Assembly: GCA_036574075.1 (NCBI GenBank)
Contig: JAINCN010000016.1
Location: 1 to 57,182, forward strand
Direction of reading: 5' to 3'
Length of the DNA stretch: 57,182 bases
DNA from: Deltaproteobacteria bacterium
GTDB lineage: Bacteria; Desulfobacterota; Dissulfuribacteria; Dissulfuribacterales; UBA5754
The position numbers and the translations under genes are program-made. Of this stretch, positions 526 through 54,779 are shown piece after piece. The number at the start of each line of letters is the position of its first letter. The first letter of the stretch is position 1. The notes beneath the pieces were generated by a model. The model was not told where the DNA came from. It saw nothing but the letters and a program-made list of their open reading frames with translations, and made no database searches.

Positions 526-704
526 AAGTTTTCAATCGCCGGTATTGTTCTGAGCTTGACACAAAATCCGAGGTGGTGACGCGGCTCTTCGAAGATGCAG
601 AACGAGGTAGGCTTACTCTGCTGTATTCGGCTCGCGATGCTGAATACAATCAAGCGGTGGCACTAAGAGAGCTTGGGTGCGGACTCAAACCGCGAGTTCC
701 TTGA
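526..704 (+). pseudogene. DUF488 family protein, C-terminal fragment
   Basis: The frame entering from element A1 reads FNRRYCSELDTKSEVVTRLF, then LFEDAERGRLTLLYSARD and NQAVALREL before a stop at 704. This matches the C-terminal end of the DUF488 family, which normally has a Y-x-x-E-L stretch followed by a T-L-L-Y-x-A-(K/R)-D strand. The first roughly 60-70 residues are missing, and the homology starts right at the element terminus, so the gene was truncated at that point. The 3' end overlaps the end of the convergent GNAT gene. Confidence 0.6.
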
Positions 705-1344
705 CATACGTTGACACATAGACGGCCATTTTGACATCAGGGGCGAATTTGGTGATCTGTCTTCGGTCGAGGAACTGGAATCCGTACCTTTCGAATACGC
801 ATGGATGCCGTCTATCTTCGAAGGTCTGGATCTGGCCGTAGACGCGCCTGGCTCCACGGCGTTTTGCGGCTTCAAGAAAGGTGAAAACGAGCCTTCGGGA
901 CGCGGTCCCGTTCCGCCACTCAGGCAGGAGATTGATGTGGAAGTGGGCGGAGTTTCGGGGTTTTTTAGGGGTCTCGAAAAATGCACGTTTTACGGTCCAA
1001 AGAATGAAATCCCTGCTTCTGGCGTCGTAGCGGCCTCGAAGAAGATTGTATGCAACCCGGGGGACGATCTTCCCCATGAAAATGGCCCCTTGTGCCCAAG
1101 GGTGAAGCAGGTGTCTGAGGCAACCGGTGAGATATCCGATCACCTGCCCTTCGGCAACGGCAACAAAACAGCTTTCCGGCTCCCAGAAGGTGTAGTAGTT
1201 CGTGAAGAAGTCCGCAAACGCACGACGGTCTGAAAAGATAGGATCTATGGGATTTCCCATGAACCCCGTCTCGCAGCAGATGCGCCGGATGTCTTCCCGG
1301 TCATCGGGGCGATACGGCCTGATGATACAGGGTTTTGATGTCAT
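685..1344 (-). CDS. GNAT-family N-acetyltransferase
   Basis: A 219-residue protein starting MTSKPCIIRPYRPDDREDIR. The N-terminal I-R-P-x-x-x-x-D pattern and the central FVAVAEGQVIGYLTG strand are typical of the GNAT fold. The C-terminal LEAAKRRGARRVYGQIQTF and FERYGFQF segments fit the acetyl-CoA-binding helix and last strands. I chose ATG 1344 over an in-frame upstream start at 1521 because the extra 59 residues are the antisense of the glycosyltransferase end and look non-protein-like. The gene overlaps the 3' end of the upstream glycosyltransferase by 44 nt, indicating co-transcription and translational coupling. The substrate is unknown; the context suggests glycan or lipid modification. 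Confidence 0.75.
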   Translation of the reverse strand: MTSKPCIIRPYRPDDREDIRRICCETGFMGNPIDPIFSDRRAFADFFTNYYTFWEPESCFVAVAEGQVIGYLTGCLRHLLHPWAQGAIFMGKIVPRVAYNLLRGRYDARSRDFILWTVKRAFFETPKKPRNSAHFHINLLPEWRNGTASRRLVFTFLEAAKRRGARRVYGQIQTFEDRRHPCVFERYGFQFLDRRQITKFAPDVKMAVYVSTYVKELAV

Positions 1345-2536
1345 TTCCGGGGGTCTTTTCGAGGAGGGATTCGTGACTTCGCTCCGCAACGGCCCGGTAG
1401 AGACGAAACAGGCGATCGAATACGATAGTGGAGTCGTAGCGGCTTCGCATCCTTTCGATGCGGGCACGTTTTTTTTCTGCGGTTTCCCCGATCCGAAAGA
1501 CCTGGATAACGGCCTCGGCAAGGGCGTCAGGCTCAGGCCCCTTTGCCATTACGGCCGGGATCTCGCCTTGGGTCACCTCTTCGAGCCCGCCTCCTTCCAC
1601 CCCAAGGACGCGGGTGCCGCATGCCTGGGCCTCTGCGGCCGCAAGGCCGAAGGTCTCGCATGTTCCGGCGTGCACGAATAAATCCGCTGCCGAATAGTAT
1701 TCAGCAAGGGTTTCCGTGCCTTCGATGTACGCTATGTGGGTAATATCCGGGTAGTTGCGGGTCGCGTGTAAGACCAGATCACTCAGTTCTCCATCGCCTA
1801 TGAGTAGGAGGTGGTAACGATCCTCTGCTTGCCGGAGATGGTCCATCATCCCGATAAGGGAGCGGATGTTTTTCTCTCGGGCGAGCCGTCCGGAAAAGAG
1901 AAGGAGGCGGACATCAGGCGCTATACCCAGCTCCATTCGGATGCGTTTACTGGAATCGCAGGGGGAGAAGCGGACTGTGTCTGTTCCAAGGGGGACGTGC
2001 ACCAGATTCCTGATGCCGATCTTTTCGAGTTCATGGACAAGGCGGCGTGCGGGGACGAAAGTGGCGTCCATGCAGTTATAAAGACGGACCAGATAACGGG
2101 AGACGAGCCTGGAAAAAGACCTTTCGGCAAGGGAACCTGCGAATCTTTGGATGGTGCGACCGAGGGCGCGGGGGTAATCCGAATGGTAGAAGGCCACGAC
2201 CGGGATCCGATGGCGTTCACCGGCCTCGATCCCGATCCAGGCCGCACGGTAGGGGTCTCCGACCTCGATCACGTCCGGCGCCTCCTGCGCGATCACGTCG
2301 AGGATCTTCGCGCGAGCCACGAGCATCCGGTAGCTTTTGGAGCCGGGAAGACGGGGAGATGCGATTTCATGGACGGTGGCGTTTTTCTCGATCCTCGTAC
2401 GGTCACGGTCGGACGGGACGATGACACAGTGGCTGAGGGCGCTGTTGCGGCCGATGAAACGCATCTTGTCGCGGATGTAACGCTTCACTCCGCCGCTCAG
2501 CGGGCTGTAGAACTGTACGATATCACAGATTTTCAT
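1301..2536 (-). CDS. Glycosyltransferase family 4 (GT-B fold)
   Basis: A 411-residue protein beginning MKICDIVQFYSPLSGGVKRY, with the N-terminal glycine-rich acceptor-site loop of GT4 enzymes. The C-terminal half has the nucleotide-sugar site: LLFSGRLAREKNIRSLIGMM, then a TCETFGLAAAEAQACG segment with the E-x7-E pattern. It presumably transfers a sugar from a nucleotide-sugar donor to a lipid or glycan; the acceptor cannot be read from sequence. It is transcribed away from the PHP-GT4 fusion and followed by the GNAT gene. The palindromic element B1 begins at its start codon, so its ribosome-binding region lies inside the element and only a weak CAGG-type Shine-Dalgarno is visible. Confidence 0.85.
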   Translation of the reverse strand: MKICDIVQFYSPLSGGVKRYIRDKMRFIGRNSALSHCVIVPSDRDRTRIEKNATVHEIASPRLPGSKSYRMLVARAKILDVIAQEAPDVIEVGDPYRAAWIGIEAGERHRIPVVAFYHSDYPRALGRTIQRFAGSLAERSFSRLVSRYLVRLYNCMDATFVPARRLVHELEKIGIRNLVHVPLGTDTVRFSPCDSSKRIRMELGIAPDVRLLLFSGRLAREKNIRSLIGMMDHLRQAEDRYHLLLIGDGELSDLVLHATRNYPDITHIAYIEGTETLAEYYSAADLFVHAGTCETFGLAAAEAQACGTRVLGVEGGGLEEVTQGEIPAVMAKGPEPDALAEAVIQVFRIGETAEKKRARIERMRSRYDSTIVFDRLFRLYRAVAERSHESLLEKTPGNDIKTLYHQAVSPR

Positions 2537-2814: not shown

Positions 2815-2870
2815 TTGTCACATAAATGTAACTCCTTCGTCATCATCCTGTAACAATATCGGACTACGAT
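2815..2870 (+). promoter_or_regulatory. Four-unit Pho box array with candidate -10 element
   Basis: Four 7-mers lie on an exact 11-bp period: TTGTCAC (2815), ATGTAAC (2826), TCGTCAT (2837) and CTGTAAC (2848). The Pho-box consensus is CTGTCAT units spaced by 4-bp AT-rich gaps, an 11-bp period. Ten bases after the last unit is TACGAT (2865-2870), a plausible -10. In PhoB-dependent promoters the box replaces the -35 and lies about this far from the -10. The downstream gene is the PHP-GT4 fusion; transcription would start near 2877, giving a leader of about 42 nt. The rest of 2732-2918 has no gene. Confidence 0.6.
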
Positions 2871-2918
2871 CCAAATGAAACGGCCTCAACGATCCGTCCT
2901 CTCAAAGGAGGTGCGAAG

Positions 2919-5366
2919 GTGGACAACCCTTCTGGTGACGCGATCCGCATCGATCTACATGTCCATTCCCGCTTTTCCAATGAGCCAGGTCAGTGGATAC
3001 TTAGAAAGATGGGATTCCGGGAGAGTTACACAGACCCCCTGGAGCTTTATTCCATCGCGCGAGATCGGGGCATGACACATGTAACCATCACGGATCATAA
3101 TACCATAGATGGGTGTCTGTGCATCGCCCACCTTCCTGACGTCATGGTCAGCGAGGAGGTGACGGCCGTCTTTCCCGAGGACGGATGCAAGATCCATGTT
3201 CTCGTCCTGGATATCACCGAGTCCATGCACGCGGAGATCCAGAGGCTCAGGGAAAACGTCTATGACCTCGTGCAATATCTGAACATGGAAGGGATCACCC
3301 ACATCCTCGCCCACGCCCTCTATCCGGTGAATCAGCGGCTCACCATGGAGCACGTGGAAAAGCTTCTCATACTCTTCAAGAATTTCGAGATGAATGGGGC
3401 GAGAAGCGCACTTCCCAACCAGACGCTCGAACTCATCTTTTCCGAACTCACGCCCTCGTTCATGGCCGAGCTTTCGGAAAGGCACCGAATCACCCCTCTG
3501 TATCCTGAGCCATGGCGCAAGACCGTCACGGGTGGCTCGGATGATCACAGCTCTCTCAACATCGCGCGGACCTATACGACCGTTCCTGCCGGGACGACCA
3601 TTGCCGATATCTTAGCAGCTATACGTCGGGGCGATACCCGGGTCGTCTCCCGCCCTCCGTCACCTCGGACCTTTGCCCACAACCTCTACGGAATCGGCTG
3701 GCGTTACTATAAGGAGAGGTTTTCCCTGGGAAACCGGGTGGGAAAGGACGTCCTGCTCGCCTGGATCGAAGAGGTCCTTCGCCCGGAGGCCACGGGTAAC
3801 TCCGGTCTCTGGAAGAGACTTTGCAGGCTTTATACCCAGTACCGGCCGGCAAGATCGACGCGGCATTTTGACGCGACTTCCCAGGGGATGTTCTACGATG
3901 TGGCGAAAAAGGTGGTGACCGGCGACCGGGTCCTTCTCTCATGCCTGGGCGGGAAAATCGGTCAGAAAGAGAAGGAACAGGCCCTTTTCAGGTTTGCGTG
4001 CGCAGTGTCCAACCAGGTCCTTGGAAAGGCGACCGATTTCCTGTCGAATAACGCGCTTTCCTTTAATATCTTTCAGATCTTCCAGTTCTTGGGGTCAGCC
4101 GGGTCCCTGCACACCGCCCTTTCCCCATACTTTGTGGCCTACGCACTTTTCCAGCAGGACCGGGCCCTTTGCCGGAAGGTGATCGGCCATTTCATCCCCC
4201 AAGGTCCGCGGTCATCCTTACCGTGTATGAAGGTTGCCCACTTTACGGACACATTCTTCGACGTCAACGGAGTCGCCCTCACCATCCAGCAGCAGGCGAG
4301 GATCGCAAAGGAGACGGGCAAGCCCCTTACGGTCATCACGTGCGGCAAGGAATCGGATCCTGCCAACGCCCCCTACAGGAATTTTACCCCCATTAGTCTT
4401 TTGCGCCTTCCAGAGTATCCCCTTCAGGAGCTTGCCATTCCACCCTTTCTCGAAATGCTCGATTACTGCTATGAGAGGGGCTTTACCCATTTTCATCTCG
4501 CAACGCCTGGGCCGGTGGGCCTTGCCGGGCTCGCCATCGCCAAGATCCTCGGACTTCCTTGTTTCGGAACGTATCACACGGCCTTTCCCGAGTACGCGGG
4601 AAGGCTCACGGCAGACAGCGACATCGAGGCCGGGATGTGGCAGTTCATGCTCTGGTTCTACCGGAACATGGACGCCGTTTTCGTCCCTTCTTGTAGCACC
4701 GCTGAAGAACTTGCAGGCCACGGGGTGGAACAGGACCGCATCCAGATCTATCCCCGGGGGGTGGACACTCGAAGGTTTCATCCCTCGAAGCGGAACGGTT
4801 TCTATGGCCGTTACGGCAAGGAAGGGGGCATCAAGCTCCTTTACGTAGGCCGGGTGTCTCGGGAAAAGAATCTCGACATCCTGGCAGAGGCATACAGGCG
4901 TATCCACAAAGAGGACCCCAACGTCCATCTCATCATCGTTGGAGACGGCCCCTACAGGGAAGAACTCCAGGCCTCCCTTGCCGGGACCTCGGCGCTATGC
5001 ACAGGGGTCCTTAGGGGGGAAGATCTTGCCGCCGCGTATGCGTCAGCGGATCTCTTTGTGTTTCCCAGCACCACTGACACCTTCGGGAACGTAGTCCTCG
5101 AGGCCCAGGCCTCGGGGCTGCCTGTGGTGGTGACGGATCGTGGTGGGCCGCGGGAAAACATGATCCCGGAGAAGACCGGAGTTGTCGTCCCTGGAGACGA
5201 TATCGAAGGGATGACCCACGCCATCTGGGCGCTTGTCACAGATGAAACGAGGAGGAAAGCCATGGGAACAGCCGCCTTTGAGTACATGCGGGAACGCTCC
5301 TTCGAAAAGGCATTCGAGCGCACATGGGAGCTTTACGGCCGGATCCGGCCGGTGGCCGTCTGCTGA
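2919..5366 (+). CDS. PHP-domain / GT4 glycosyltransferase fusion
   Basis: An 815-residue protein starting at GTG 2919, with AAGGAGGTG at 2905-2913 as ribosome-binding site. Residues 1 to about 215 form a PHP metal-dependent phosphoesterase domain: DLHVHSRFS near residue 8, DHNTIDG near 57, and GGSDDHSS near 205 supply the usual His/Asp metal ligands. Residues about 215-430 are helical and unassigned. From about 436 (MKVAHFTDTFFDVNGVA) there is a complete GT4 enzyme of the diacylglycerol-glucosyltransferase/SqdX type, with GRVSREKN near 645 and a C-terminal FPSTTDTFGNVVLEAQASG donor site. The Pho boxes suggest induction by phosphate starvation. I infer that the PHP half frees diacylglycerol or a related acceptor from a phospholipid and the GT half glycosylates it; that coupling is not proven by sequence. 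Confidence 0.85.
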   Translation: MDNPSGDAIRIDLHVHSRFSNEPGQWILRKMGFRESYTDPLELYSIARDRGMTHVTITDHNTIDGCLCIAHLPDVMVSEEVTAVFPEDGCKIHVLVLDITESMHAEIQRLRENVYDLVQYLNMEGITHILAHALYPVNQRLTMEHVEKLLILFKNFEMNGARSALPNQTLELIFSELTPSFMAELSERHRITPLYPEPWRKTVTGGSDDHSSLNIARTYTTVPAGTTIADILAAIRRGDTRVVSRPPSPRTFAHNLYGIGWRYYKERFSLGNRVGKDVLLAWIEEVLRPEATGNSGLWKRLCRLYTQYRPARSTRHFDATSQGMFYDVAKKVVTGDRVLLSCLGGKIGQKEKEQALFRFACAVSNQVLGKATDFLSNNALSFNIFQIFQFLGSAGSLHTALSPYFVAYALFQQDRALCRKVIGHFIPQGPRSSLPCMKVAHFTDTFFDVNGVALTIQQQARIAKETGKPLTVITCGKESDPANAPYRNFTPISLLRLPEYPLQELAIPPFLEMLDYCYERGFTHFHLATPGPVGLAGLAIAKILGLPCFGTYHTAFPEYAGRLTADSDIEAGMWQFMLWFYRNMDAVFVPSCSTAEELAGHGVEQDRIQIYPRGVDTRRFHPSKRNGFYGRYGKEGGIKLLYVGRVSREKNLDILAEAYRRIHKEDPNVHLIIVGDGPYREELQASLAGTSALCTGVLRGEDLAAAYASADLFVFPSTTDTFGNVVLEAQASGLPVVVTDRGGPRENMIPEKTGVVVPGDDIEGMTHAIWALVTDETRRKAMGTAAFEYMRERSFEKAFERTWELYGRIRPVAVC

Positions 5367-5382: not shown

Positions 5383-6681
5383 ATGCCCAAGACCTTTGTC
5401 CTCGACACCAATGTCCTTCTTCACAATCCGAGTTCTGTCTTTGCCTTTGAGAAAAACCAGGTCGTCATCCCCTTTGCCGTCATCGAAGAGATCGACAACC
5501 AGAAGCGCAGACAGGACGAGATCGGCAGAAACGCCCGTGAGATCTCCCGCATACTCGACGGGCTGAGAAACGGCTCGCGCCTGTCCGATGAGGTGGGCCT
5601 GCCAAACGGAGGTACACTTCGAATCGAGCTCAACCACCTGGATGTGCAGGGGCTTCCCCTGGGAATGGACCCTGAAAAATCCGACAACCGCATCCTCGCC
5701 GTGGCCCATGCCCTCAATGCCGAGGGGCGTTTTCCAGTCGTTCTTGTCACGAAGGACCTGAATCTCCGCATCAAGGCGGACGTCTTGGGGATTCGGGCAG
5801 AAGATTTCTCAAACGACAAGGTGGATTATCTCCAGCTCTATACAGGAGTGGCTGAAAAAGGGCTGACAGCCGAGGAATTGGACGTCTTTTTTCGAGATAA
5901 GGGCCTTTTCGTCCAGGACGGGGCCTTTTATCCCAACCAGTTCCTCATTCTAAGAAACAGTTCGTGTCCCTCCCAATCAGCGCTCGGGCGATACAGGCGC
6001 GGGAAGGTCCATGCCCTGCGTCACGCCGACGCGGTCTGTTTCGAAGTCCGAGCCCGGAACAAGGAGCAGCGGTTCGCTTTCGAGCTCCTTCTCGACGACG
6101 AGGTCAAGGTCGTGACCCTTGTCGGAAACGCGGGTACGGGAAAGACCTTGCTGGCCCTGGCGGTGGGGCTTGAAAAGGTCCTCGAAGAGGGGCTCTATTC
6201 GAGGCTCCTCGTGACGAGGCCCCTTGTCCCCATGGGGGATGACCTTGGCTATCTGCCCGGGAGCAAGGAAGAAAAGCTCAGGCCATGGATGCAGCCTATC
6301 TACGACAATCTGGAGTACCTCCTCGGAAACTGCGCAGACAGGGGCGACATCATTCGGGACTATATGTCAAGGGACATCATCCAGATGGAGGCCCTGACCT
6401 ACATTCGGGGGCGAAGCATCCCGAACCAGTTCATCATCTGTGACGAGGCCCAGAACCTCACGCCCCACATGATCAAGACCTTGGTCACGCGCGTCGGCGA
6501 GGGCTCGAAGATCGTCTTTACCGGGGATCCGGAGCAGATCGACAATCCCTATCTCGATGCGAGCAGCAACGGACTTACCTATCTGGTGGAAAAGTTCAAG
6601 ACCGAGGAGATCGCTGGCCATGTGAGCCTCGTAAAGGGCGAACGCTCCCGCGTTGCCGAGATCGGGGCCAGGGTCTTGTAA
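5383..6681 (+). CDS. PIN-domain / PhoH-like ATPase
   Basis: A 432-residue protein starting [16 protein letters not shown] (ATG 5383, 16 nt after the fusion gene). The first ~150 residues are a PIN ribonuclease-like domain with the acidic residues DTNVL, EEID and DNRILA. Residues ~225-432 are a PhoH ATPase domain: [13 protein letters not shown] (Walker A), [19 protein letters not shown] (Walker B) and [12 protein letters not shown]-PhoH proteins (PhoH2 type) are thought to act as RNA helicase/ribonucleases. An in-frame start at 5233 would overlap the fusion gene's C-terminus and is not needed. Despite the name, PhoH-like proteins are not necessarily phosphate-regulated, though this copy may share the upstream transcript. 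Confidence 0.9.
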
Positions 6682-27004: not shown

Positions 27005-27179
27005 CCTGAATCCGTGAGCCGACGTCCGGGGTATTTGTTCCGTGCGGCAAATAGCCCCCGTCCATGGGGGCGGATTTGCCGTTCGAGCCCCGTCCATGGG
27101 CGCCTCACTCCATAACTACCCCGGACGTCGGCTTATTGTGAAAAATTGCCAAGTTAAGTTCATATCTCACGGATTCAGG
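27005..27179 (+). repeat. Palindromic element family A, copy A3 (full length, 175 bp)
   Basis: Terminal CCTGAATCCGTGAG and CTCACGGATTCAGG. Inner arms GCCGACGTCCGGGGTA and TACCCCGGACGTCGGC pair perfectly. The core contains CCCCCGTCCATGGGGGCGG, and the tail TTATTGTGAAAAATTGCC then AAGTTAAGTTCATAT precedes the right terminus. No clear target duplication is visible. Confidence 0.85.
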
Positions 27180-43107: not shown

Positions 43108-43280
43108 CCTGAATCCGTGAGCCTACGGCCTGGGTATTTGTTCCGTGCGGCAAATAGCCCCCGTCCATGGGGGCGGATTTGCCGACGGCGCCCATCCGTG
43201 GGCGCCTCACTCCACAAACACCCCGGCCGTAGGCTTATTTTGAAAATCAAATGGTTGACTGCATGTCTCACGGATTCAGG
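43108..43280 (+). repeat. Palindromic element family A, copy A6, with 6-bp target duplication
   Basis: 173 bp with the standard terminal repeats. Inner arms GCCTACGGCCTGGG and CCCCGGCCGTAGGC pair; core orientation is as in A3. GATATA is directly repeated at 43102-43107 and 43281-43286, as expected of a transposed element. Confidence 0.85.
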
Positions 43281-43537: not shown

Positions 43538-43895
43538 TCTTCGCTGTTTTAGGGCCTATGTATAGGGGCGGCATCTCATACCTCCGGGATGAAAGAGGCG
43601 TTTGAGGTTATGAGGTGGGGTGATAGGAAATCGCTTTCCAAGGATTGGGAAGCAGGGTGACCAGTGAACGCTGAATTGCGGGCCCAAAATCTCCTCGGAG
43701 TCCATCTCTTCCAACCCCTATAATATGAAAATCGCGTATCCCGACTGGGATCGGGCTGTCAAGCGATCAAATAATGTTTTTTCAGATACGAAACGATCAG
43801 GATGTCAACGCACGCTGCCCAGGTTCGTAAAAGGTTGATTCTCCTGCCCGCGTGGACTCCATCCCCGCAGTGGTGTAAAGTGGGACACACGAAAA

Positions 43896-44070
43896 CCTGA
43901 ATCCGTGAGATATGAACTCAACTTGGCAATTTTTCAAAATAAGCCGGCGTTCGGGGCATTTGTGGAGTGAGGCGCCCATGGACGGGGCTCGAACGGCAAA
44001 TCCGCCCCCATGGACGGGGGCTATTTGCCGCACGGAACAAATACCCCGAACGCCGGCTCACGGATTCAGG
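43896..44070 (-). repeat. Palindromic element family A, copy A7, with 5-bp target duplication
   Basis: 175 bp in the opposite orientation to A3 (the AACTTGGCAATTTTTC tail is on the left). Inner arms GCCGGCGTTCGGGG and CCCCGAACGCCGGC pair fully. GAAAA repeats at 43891-43895 and 44071-44075. It ends 24 bp before the surA-like start codon. Confidence 0.85.
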
Positions 44071-54599: not shown

Positions 54600-54779
54600 A
54601 GGGATCCGTCAAGTCAAAATCCTGAATCTGTGGGCTGGCGGCGGGGGTATTTGTGGAGTGAAGCGCCCATGGACGGGCGCTGTCGGCAAATCCGCCCCCA
54701 TGGACGGGGGCTATTTGCCGCACGGAATAAATACCCCTGCCGCCAGCCCACAGAACCTCACTGACTTTGACGGATCCCT
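54600..54779. repeat. Palindromic element A9 with extra outer inverted repeat
   Basis: Contains a family A core (CCTGAATCTGTGGGCTGGC on the left, then GCGCCCATGGACGGGCGCTG and GGGGGCTATTTGCCG). Its inner arms are GGGCTGGCGGCGGGGG and CCCCTGCCGCCAGCCC. Outside these is a perfect 14-bp inverted repeat AGGGATCCGTCAAA ... TTTGACGGATCCCT, which the other copies lack. It lies between the AMMECR1 gene (downstream end) and yacG. Confidence 0.7.

Follow-up and report, generated by a model that had tools for sequence, protein, structure and literature searches.

The locus examined here raises the question of whether a single polypeptide, made in response to phosphate (Pi) limitation, could both free diacylglycerol (DAG) from phospholipids and glycosylate it. 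The window, that is, the whole stretch of DNA analysed, comprises 57,182 nucleotides of one contig of a Deltaproteobacteria bacterium whose genome (G000) is 1.99 Mb in 66 contigs and 99.9% complete. A gene on the plus strand (2919..5366, GTG start, with a ribosome-binding site, AAAGGAGG, at 2904..2911 on the same strand) encodes an 815-aa fusion of a PHP domain, a helical linker and a GT4 glycosyltransferase. A PIN-PhoH (PhoH2) gene (5383..6681, plus strand) lies 17 bp downstream. phoH2 is directly downstream of the PHP-GT4 gene in the congener G001 and in G015 as well, and the two genes probably belong to the same operon.

On balance, we lean towards the following scheme. Under Pi limitation, a PhoB-controlled promoter would drive the operon of PHP-GT4 and phoH2. 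The GT4 half, of the Agt type, would transfer sugar from a UDP-sugar onto DAG, and the resulting phosphorus-free glycolipids would replace phospholipids. The PHP half would be a working metal-dependent phosphoesterase, most likely providing DAG in the same chain. The DAG could come from phospholipids, if PHP removes their phosphorylated head group in the way PlcP does in other bacteria, or from phosphatidic acid, if PHP takes off its phosphate.

Four Pho boxes precede the gene on the plus strand: TTGTCAC (2815..2821), ATGTAAC (2826..2832), TCGTCAT (2837..2843) and CTGTAAC (2848..2854). The preliminary description had placed them at an exact 11-bp period, with TACGAT 10 bases past the last box, and both statements hold; 11 bp is the best repeat period at the array among periods of 8-14, and TACGAT (2865..2870, plus strand) is a probable -10 hexamer. 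The region thus has the arrangement by which a Pho promoter is recognized, at least two direct 7-bp repeats with an 11-bp period ahead of a -10 hexamer. In Pho promoters of E. coli, the -10 follows the boxes and no -35 is needed. Scoring with a Pho-box matrix, which had been suggested as a check, made the array the top site of the window. With a matrix based on E. coli Pho boxes, the four boxes (2815-2854) score 24.9 and the next non-overlapping site on either strand scores 11.9, and 60 first-order-shuffled windows gave a maximum of 16.6 and a mean of 8.8.

The genome also contains the regulatory genes. It has two OmpR-type regulators, one of which (on contig C7) is followed by a histidine kinase. 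The best NCBIfam model for this regulator is PhoB (244 bits, cut-off 296), and the best models for the kinase are PnpS and PhoR (261 and 229 bits, below their cut-offs). Searching the genome for PhoB, as the preliminary description had advised, therefore yielded a PhoB/PhoR-like pair (L037) together with pstSCAB-phoU, in which PstS and PhoU score above their NCBIfam cut-offs. A pattern, TGTCACNWAAWTGTAAC, drawn up from the sites before the PHP-GT4 gene, pstS and phoB, matches the genome perfectly at exactly three places, which lie before phoB (C7), before pstS (C31) and before the PHP-GT4 gene, where boxes 1 and 2 form the match. The reversed control pattern has no match genome-wide, even allowing two mismatches. 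G001 was not used in drawing up the pattern, and its perfect matches are again three and again before phoB, pstS and the PHP-GT4 gene. G001 has all four boxes and TACGAT unchanged, although the sequence just before them has diverged and the Pho promoter is separated from the PHP-GT4 gene by an insert of about 150 bp.

In principle, the array could have arisen by chance, the intergenic DNA being richer in AT, and boxes 2-4 do each deviate from the CTGTCAT consensus. Such an origin is scarcely credible, however, for an array that scores beyond all shuffles, has its motif in common with pstS and phoB, and is unchanged in a congener despite diverged flanks and an insertion. We rejected it on the genome-wide pattern matches and the shuffle scores. 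Because three genes share the motif in G000 and again in G001, the case for PhoB control is as strong as sequence evidence gets, and we regard it as nearly certain that the boxes are, as predicted, a genuine PhoB-controlled promoter.

Conservation of the boxes in relatives had been proposed as a further check, and they are retained in G001, G015 and G011. G015 and G011 represent two other genera, each with an orthologue 50% identical to the fusion, and their four-box arrays are weaker. The G015 array, at 11 bp, is CTGTCAT/ATGTTTC/TCGTCAT/TCGTAAA, in which the third box is identical to ours; that of G011, also at 11 bp, is TTGTAAC/TATTTAC/GTGTAAC/TTGTAAA. With a matrix that includes four boxes of our own genome, four-box arrays at p<0.01 occur in 14 of 75 relatives' upstream regions and before 10 of 220 neighbouring genes (Fisher p = 0.0004). 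About two thirds of the relatives have no significant box within 400 bp directly upstream, in part because the gene sits inside an operon. Where dksA stands in front of PHP-GT4, there are boxes before dksA in 4 of the 5 loci tried. The boxes of the PHP-GT4 promoter also agree with the PhoB box of D. vulgaris, (c/t)GT(n)AC, obtained by DAP-chip (PMC3333781).

The GT4 domain (aa 437-809; 4227..5345, plus strand) was described at the outset as complete and of the diacylglycerol-glycosyltransferase type. The completeness is borne out: the catalytic residues R645, E649, K650 and D720-x7-E728 are invariant among 67 aligned members. The acceptor type is argued for by homology. In a plasmid collection and selected glycosyltransferases, the closest characterized relatives of this half are Agt enzymes. 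The nearest stand-alone homologue (33.6%, 174 bits) is the glycosyltransferase of the P. aeruginosa cerN-plcH-plcR locus, which by gene order we take to be PA0842 (Agt2); GpgS-type proteins reach 80-110 bits in direct pairwise comparison. Agt2 is a DAG glycosyltransferase that uses UDP-glucuronate to make glucuronosyl-DAG in vitro, and it is Pi-induced (PMC8528852). Other near homologues adjoin PlcP-like genes in three records, from Sphingomonas, Thiodictyon and Methylobacterium. We took these relationships from pairwise scores and left the GT4-domain tree aside, in which long branches dominate and one row (GpgS_G001) is probably in the wrong frame.

G000 also has a stand-alone Agt1-like gene (C34, 755-1780; L241), 50% identical to the PlcP-linked Sphingomonas Agt. 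No Pho boxes were found at this gene, which could by itself be a glycolipid maker.

Results from Desulfovibrio bear on the function of the GT4 half. In sulfate reducers short of Pi, more than 90% of the phospholipids can be replaced, and Desulfovibrio alaskensis G20 depends under these conditions on Dde_3613, an 'Agt homologue', for MGDG and GADG, all of its glycolipids (PMC5193443). That study names no DAG-freeing enzyme and does not describe the architecture of Dde_3613. With Agt2 as query, there is a strong match in 102 of 206 Desulfovibrionaceae genomes, in nearly all of them in a fusion of more than 800 aa, and a stand-alone Agt1-like form in one of the 206. Because the Agt-like proteins of Desulfovibrionaceae are almost always fused, Dde_3613 is by elimination most likely a fusion as well, and the family-wide architecture counts make it very probably a PHP-GT4 fusion. 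Dde_3613 would then be an Agt homologue from a family in which fusion is near-universal, with a glycolipid requirement seen only under Pi limitation (PMC5193443). It follows from the phenotype of Dde_3613 and the architecture of its family that lipid glycosylation under Pi control is likely and, for the most part, already known. A role as a lipid glycosyltransferase is likely for the fusion and has probably been demonstrated already in a relative. We infer the glycolipid product from homology and from the published mutants of this probable orthologue. The preliminary description had proposed a one-protein remodeller of lipids under Pi starvation. Its Pi-regulated glycosylation is upheld by the boxes, the Agt2 homology and Dde_3613; its cleavage step has the more tentative standing given below. 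The new part is the coupling in a single chain through PHP.

The gene was correctly read as a PHP-GT4 fusion, since Pfam finds GT4 and PHP_C and the PHP fold is clear in the AlphaFold2 model. By Pfam alone PHP_C is weak and the N-terminal PHP fold barely detected. The model (67 sequences, 815 aa, pLDDT 88, pTM 0.88) consists of PHP, helical linker and glycosyltransferase. Structural matches of the PHP domain (aa 9-245; 2943..3653, plus strand) are 3e38 (Z 17.9), 2anu (17.6), 3o0f (16.7), 2yb1 (14.6) and 7ug9 (14.3), and Foldseek matches it to solved PHP phosphoesterases at E 2e-8. The linker (aa 249-425; 3663..4193, plus strand) is all-helical, with no clear transmembrane stretch and no Pfam family. 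Eight positions, H14, H16, H60, E80, H93, H132, D208 and H210, which we take to be the PHP metal ligands, are invariant in 67 of 67 aligned sequences. Many PHP enzymes carry one further metal ligand at the position equivalent to residue 21, the third ligand position of motif I; here this residue is variable (T, K, R, N or D among the 67). The PHP fold and the invariant ligand positions indicate that the PHP half is under selection as an enzyme. PHP phosphoesterases such as TM0559, BAD_1165, RNase AM and CV1693 have the same fold (Z 14-18) and, apart from the third ligand position of motif I, the same metal-ligand pattern; the PHP half differs from them in that variable position and in being fused to a GT4. 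PHP enzymes of known activity have phosphomonoesters, cyclic phosphates or nucleic acids as substrates, and we know of none that cleaves or acts on phospholipids. In the open literature, with most subscription journals outside it, we found no paper on a PHP-glycosyltransferase fusion or a PHP phospholipase.

The fusion is found well beyond this genome and is common among sulfate reducers. There are at least 148 relatives or loci in named genomes, mostly from Desulfobacterota (Desulfovibrionales, Desulfobacterales, Syntrophobacterales); 80 of the 148 were kept, 67 were aligned, and 75 upstream regions were scored. Of 395 genomes of the phylum, about 65-70 have PHP with the linker, and the ORF that carries it is almost always longer than 600-800 aa. 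Close relatives retain the architecture of PHP, linker and GT4, and in its own order the fusion is patchy. Thus, the fusion is old, practically obligate and not peculiar to one genome. We rejected the idea that short PHP matches in the phylum are without linker or GT4 after reading four matches from among the most divergent ones. Three have all three parts, PHP, linker and GT4 (one of these three is truncated), and in the remaining one PHP and linker are joined to a GT4 that is incomplete or degenerate. Another match, of 465 aa, has the look of an internal deletion. One contig (contig_38327) is filed under both an Anaerolineales bin (L090) and a Syntrophobacterales bin (L091), so that the PHP-GT4 ascribed to 'Chloroflexota' probably reflects an error in binning.

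Of 30 genomes with the fusion, 29 have no PlcP-like protein and one has a 28% match. The query used recovers S. meliloti PlcP at 9e-78, and it finds no PlcP-type metallophosphoesterase in G000, where the fusion carries a PHP fold instead. The PlcP-Agt pathway of S. meliloti, Phaeobacter and P. aeruginosa (PA3219/PA3218/PA0842; PMC8528852) has in common with our locus the Pho-box control, an Agt-type GT4 related to PA0842, and a phosphoesterase and a glycosyltransferase in one pathway. The difference is that the fusion occurs without PlcP, which has the metallophosphoesterase fold, and has the unrelated PHP joined to the glycosyltransferase in the same chain by a helical linker.

Two other readings of the fusion have to be weighed, one for each half. 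The GT4 half might use another acceptor, such as phosphatidylglycerol (giving glucosaminyl-PG, as expected of a GpgS-like enzyme), a phosphoinositide or a polysaccharide precursor. This seems improbable to us. The top NCBIfam model for the fusion is indeed GlcNAc-PG synthase (NF053787, 127 bits), but this is also the top model for Agt2, a proven DAG enzyme, which scores much alike (135 bits), and both scores are far under the curated cut-off of 480. PimB' as the top PDB sequence match of the GT4 half, and the gpgS-gpgD-gpgF-like cluster in divergent position, also speak for a different acceptor; against them stand the rank of Agt2 well above GpgS-type proteins in direct comparison and the loss of both MGDG and GADG without Dde_3613. 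GpgS, the GlcNAc-phosphatidylglycerol synthase (PMC12713373), belongs to the same GT4 superfamily as the fusion, whose divergent neighbour is a GpgS-like gene, but the fusion matches GpgS more weakly than it matches Agt2.

For the PHP half, the substrate is what we infer most indirectly. Supply of DAG, whether as a phospholipase C or as a phosphatidic acid phosphatase, is a good candidate function. Activity as a phospholipase C is consistent with the invariant metal site and the absence of PlcP, and phosphatidic acid phosphatase or nucleotide or sugar-phosphate activity would fit these equally. We consider a PHP that stands in for PlcP the economical reading of the sequences, and a phosphatidic acid phosphatase its conservative version. 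That one polypeptide takes phospholipid to glycolipid, with PHP as a new phospholipase C unrelated to PlcP (or as a phosphatidic acid phosphatase) that passes DAG to the attached Agt-type GT4, is a proposal we make tentatively. Somewhat unlikely, in our estimate, is that GT4 makes the glycolipid under PhoB and PHP acts on a small molecule, a nucleotide product or a sugar phosphate, pulling or tuning the reaction or recovering phosphate. The best structural matches of PHP would suit this, as they are nucleotide or nucleic-acid enzymes or uncharacterized phosphoesterases (RNase AM, EndoQ, BAD_1165, and 2yb1, the CV1693 AMP/phosphate complex). A dedicated DAG source also need not exist, because bacteria make DAG by other routes. 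However, PlcP is missing where the fusion occurs, stand-alone Agt relatives adjoin phospholipase genes (a PlcP gene in three records, and plcH in the case of Agt2), and it is simpler to suppose that steps adjacent in a pathway have become fixed in one fusion.

Glycolipids of sulfate reducers are taken to indicate phosphorus stress in anoxic waters, and the PHP-GT4 family is the natural candidate for the DAG-freeing enzyme of these bacteria. If the proposal of a DAG-supplying PHP is true, the fusion would be the DAG source for lipid replacement under Pi starvation in sulfate reducers. Among the PHP enzymes, known as a superfamily for acting on nucleotides and nucleic acids, there would then be one that cleaves lipids, and in Desulfobacterota both activities should appear in the annotation of Agt.

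Divergent from the PHP-GT4 gene is the GpgS-like GT4 (1301..2536, minus strand; top NCBIfam model GlcNAc-PG synthase GpgS, 296 bits, cut-off 480), followed by a GNAT-like protein (685..1521, minus strand). In the congener (L040, 4500-8864) these two continue into a GpgD-like deacetylase (NF053788, 173 bits) and a GpgF-like flippase (NF053789, 111 bits). The scores of this gpgSDF-like cluster are below the curated cut-offs. Elsewhere, genes for Methyltransf_24 and Psd-like proteins stand directly before PHP-GT4 (L085, L091, L102, L104, L113, L115, L121, L125, L129, L136, L138, L149), apparently forming one operon with it in about a dozen loci, and a radical SAM protein follows PHP-GT4 in about 13 others.

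There are further Pho-like sites in G000. A second four-box array on C31 (32744-32784; L226), TTGTCAC/ATGCCAC/ATGTAAC/TCGTCAC, scores 19.0 and is followed by genes for an 805-aa protein with no Pfam or NCBIfam family, phosphatidylserine decarboxylase and an Lgt-like protein. By eye, the 805-aa protein seems to have a homologue near PHP-GT4 in L136, and related proteins are in L085 and L153. Together with the Psd-like neighbours, this array and these homologues suggest a wider Pho-controlled lipid module. Four near-perfect Pho-like boxes, TTGTCAC repeats and then CTGTAAC, are on the minus strand of C31 (44180-44225; L039), about 450 bp beyond phoU, and are present in G001 (C8) too.

Lastly, a dispersed repeat of about 180 bp, with copies about 70% alike, occurs many times in G000 and G001. 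Copies in the window are at 27006-27173, 43109-43242, 43893-44069 and 54633-54731. One copy in G001 (L040, insert near 3870-4060) is between the Pho promoter and PHP-GT4; a partial copy lies between the Pho box and phoB in G000, and one copy is beside the Pho-like site on C47.
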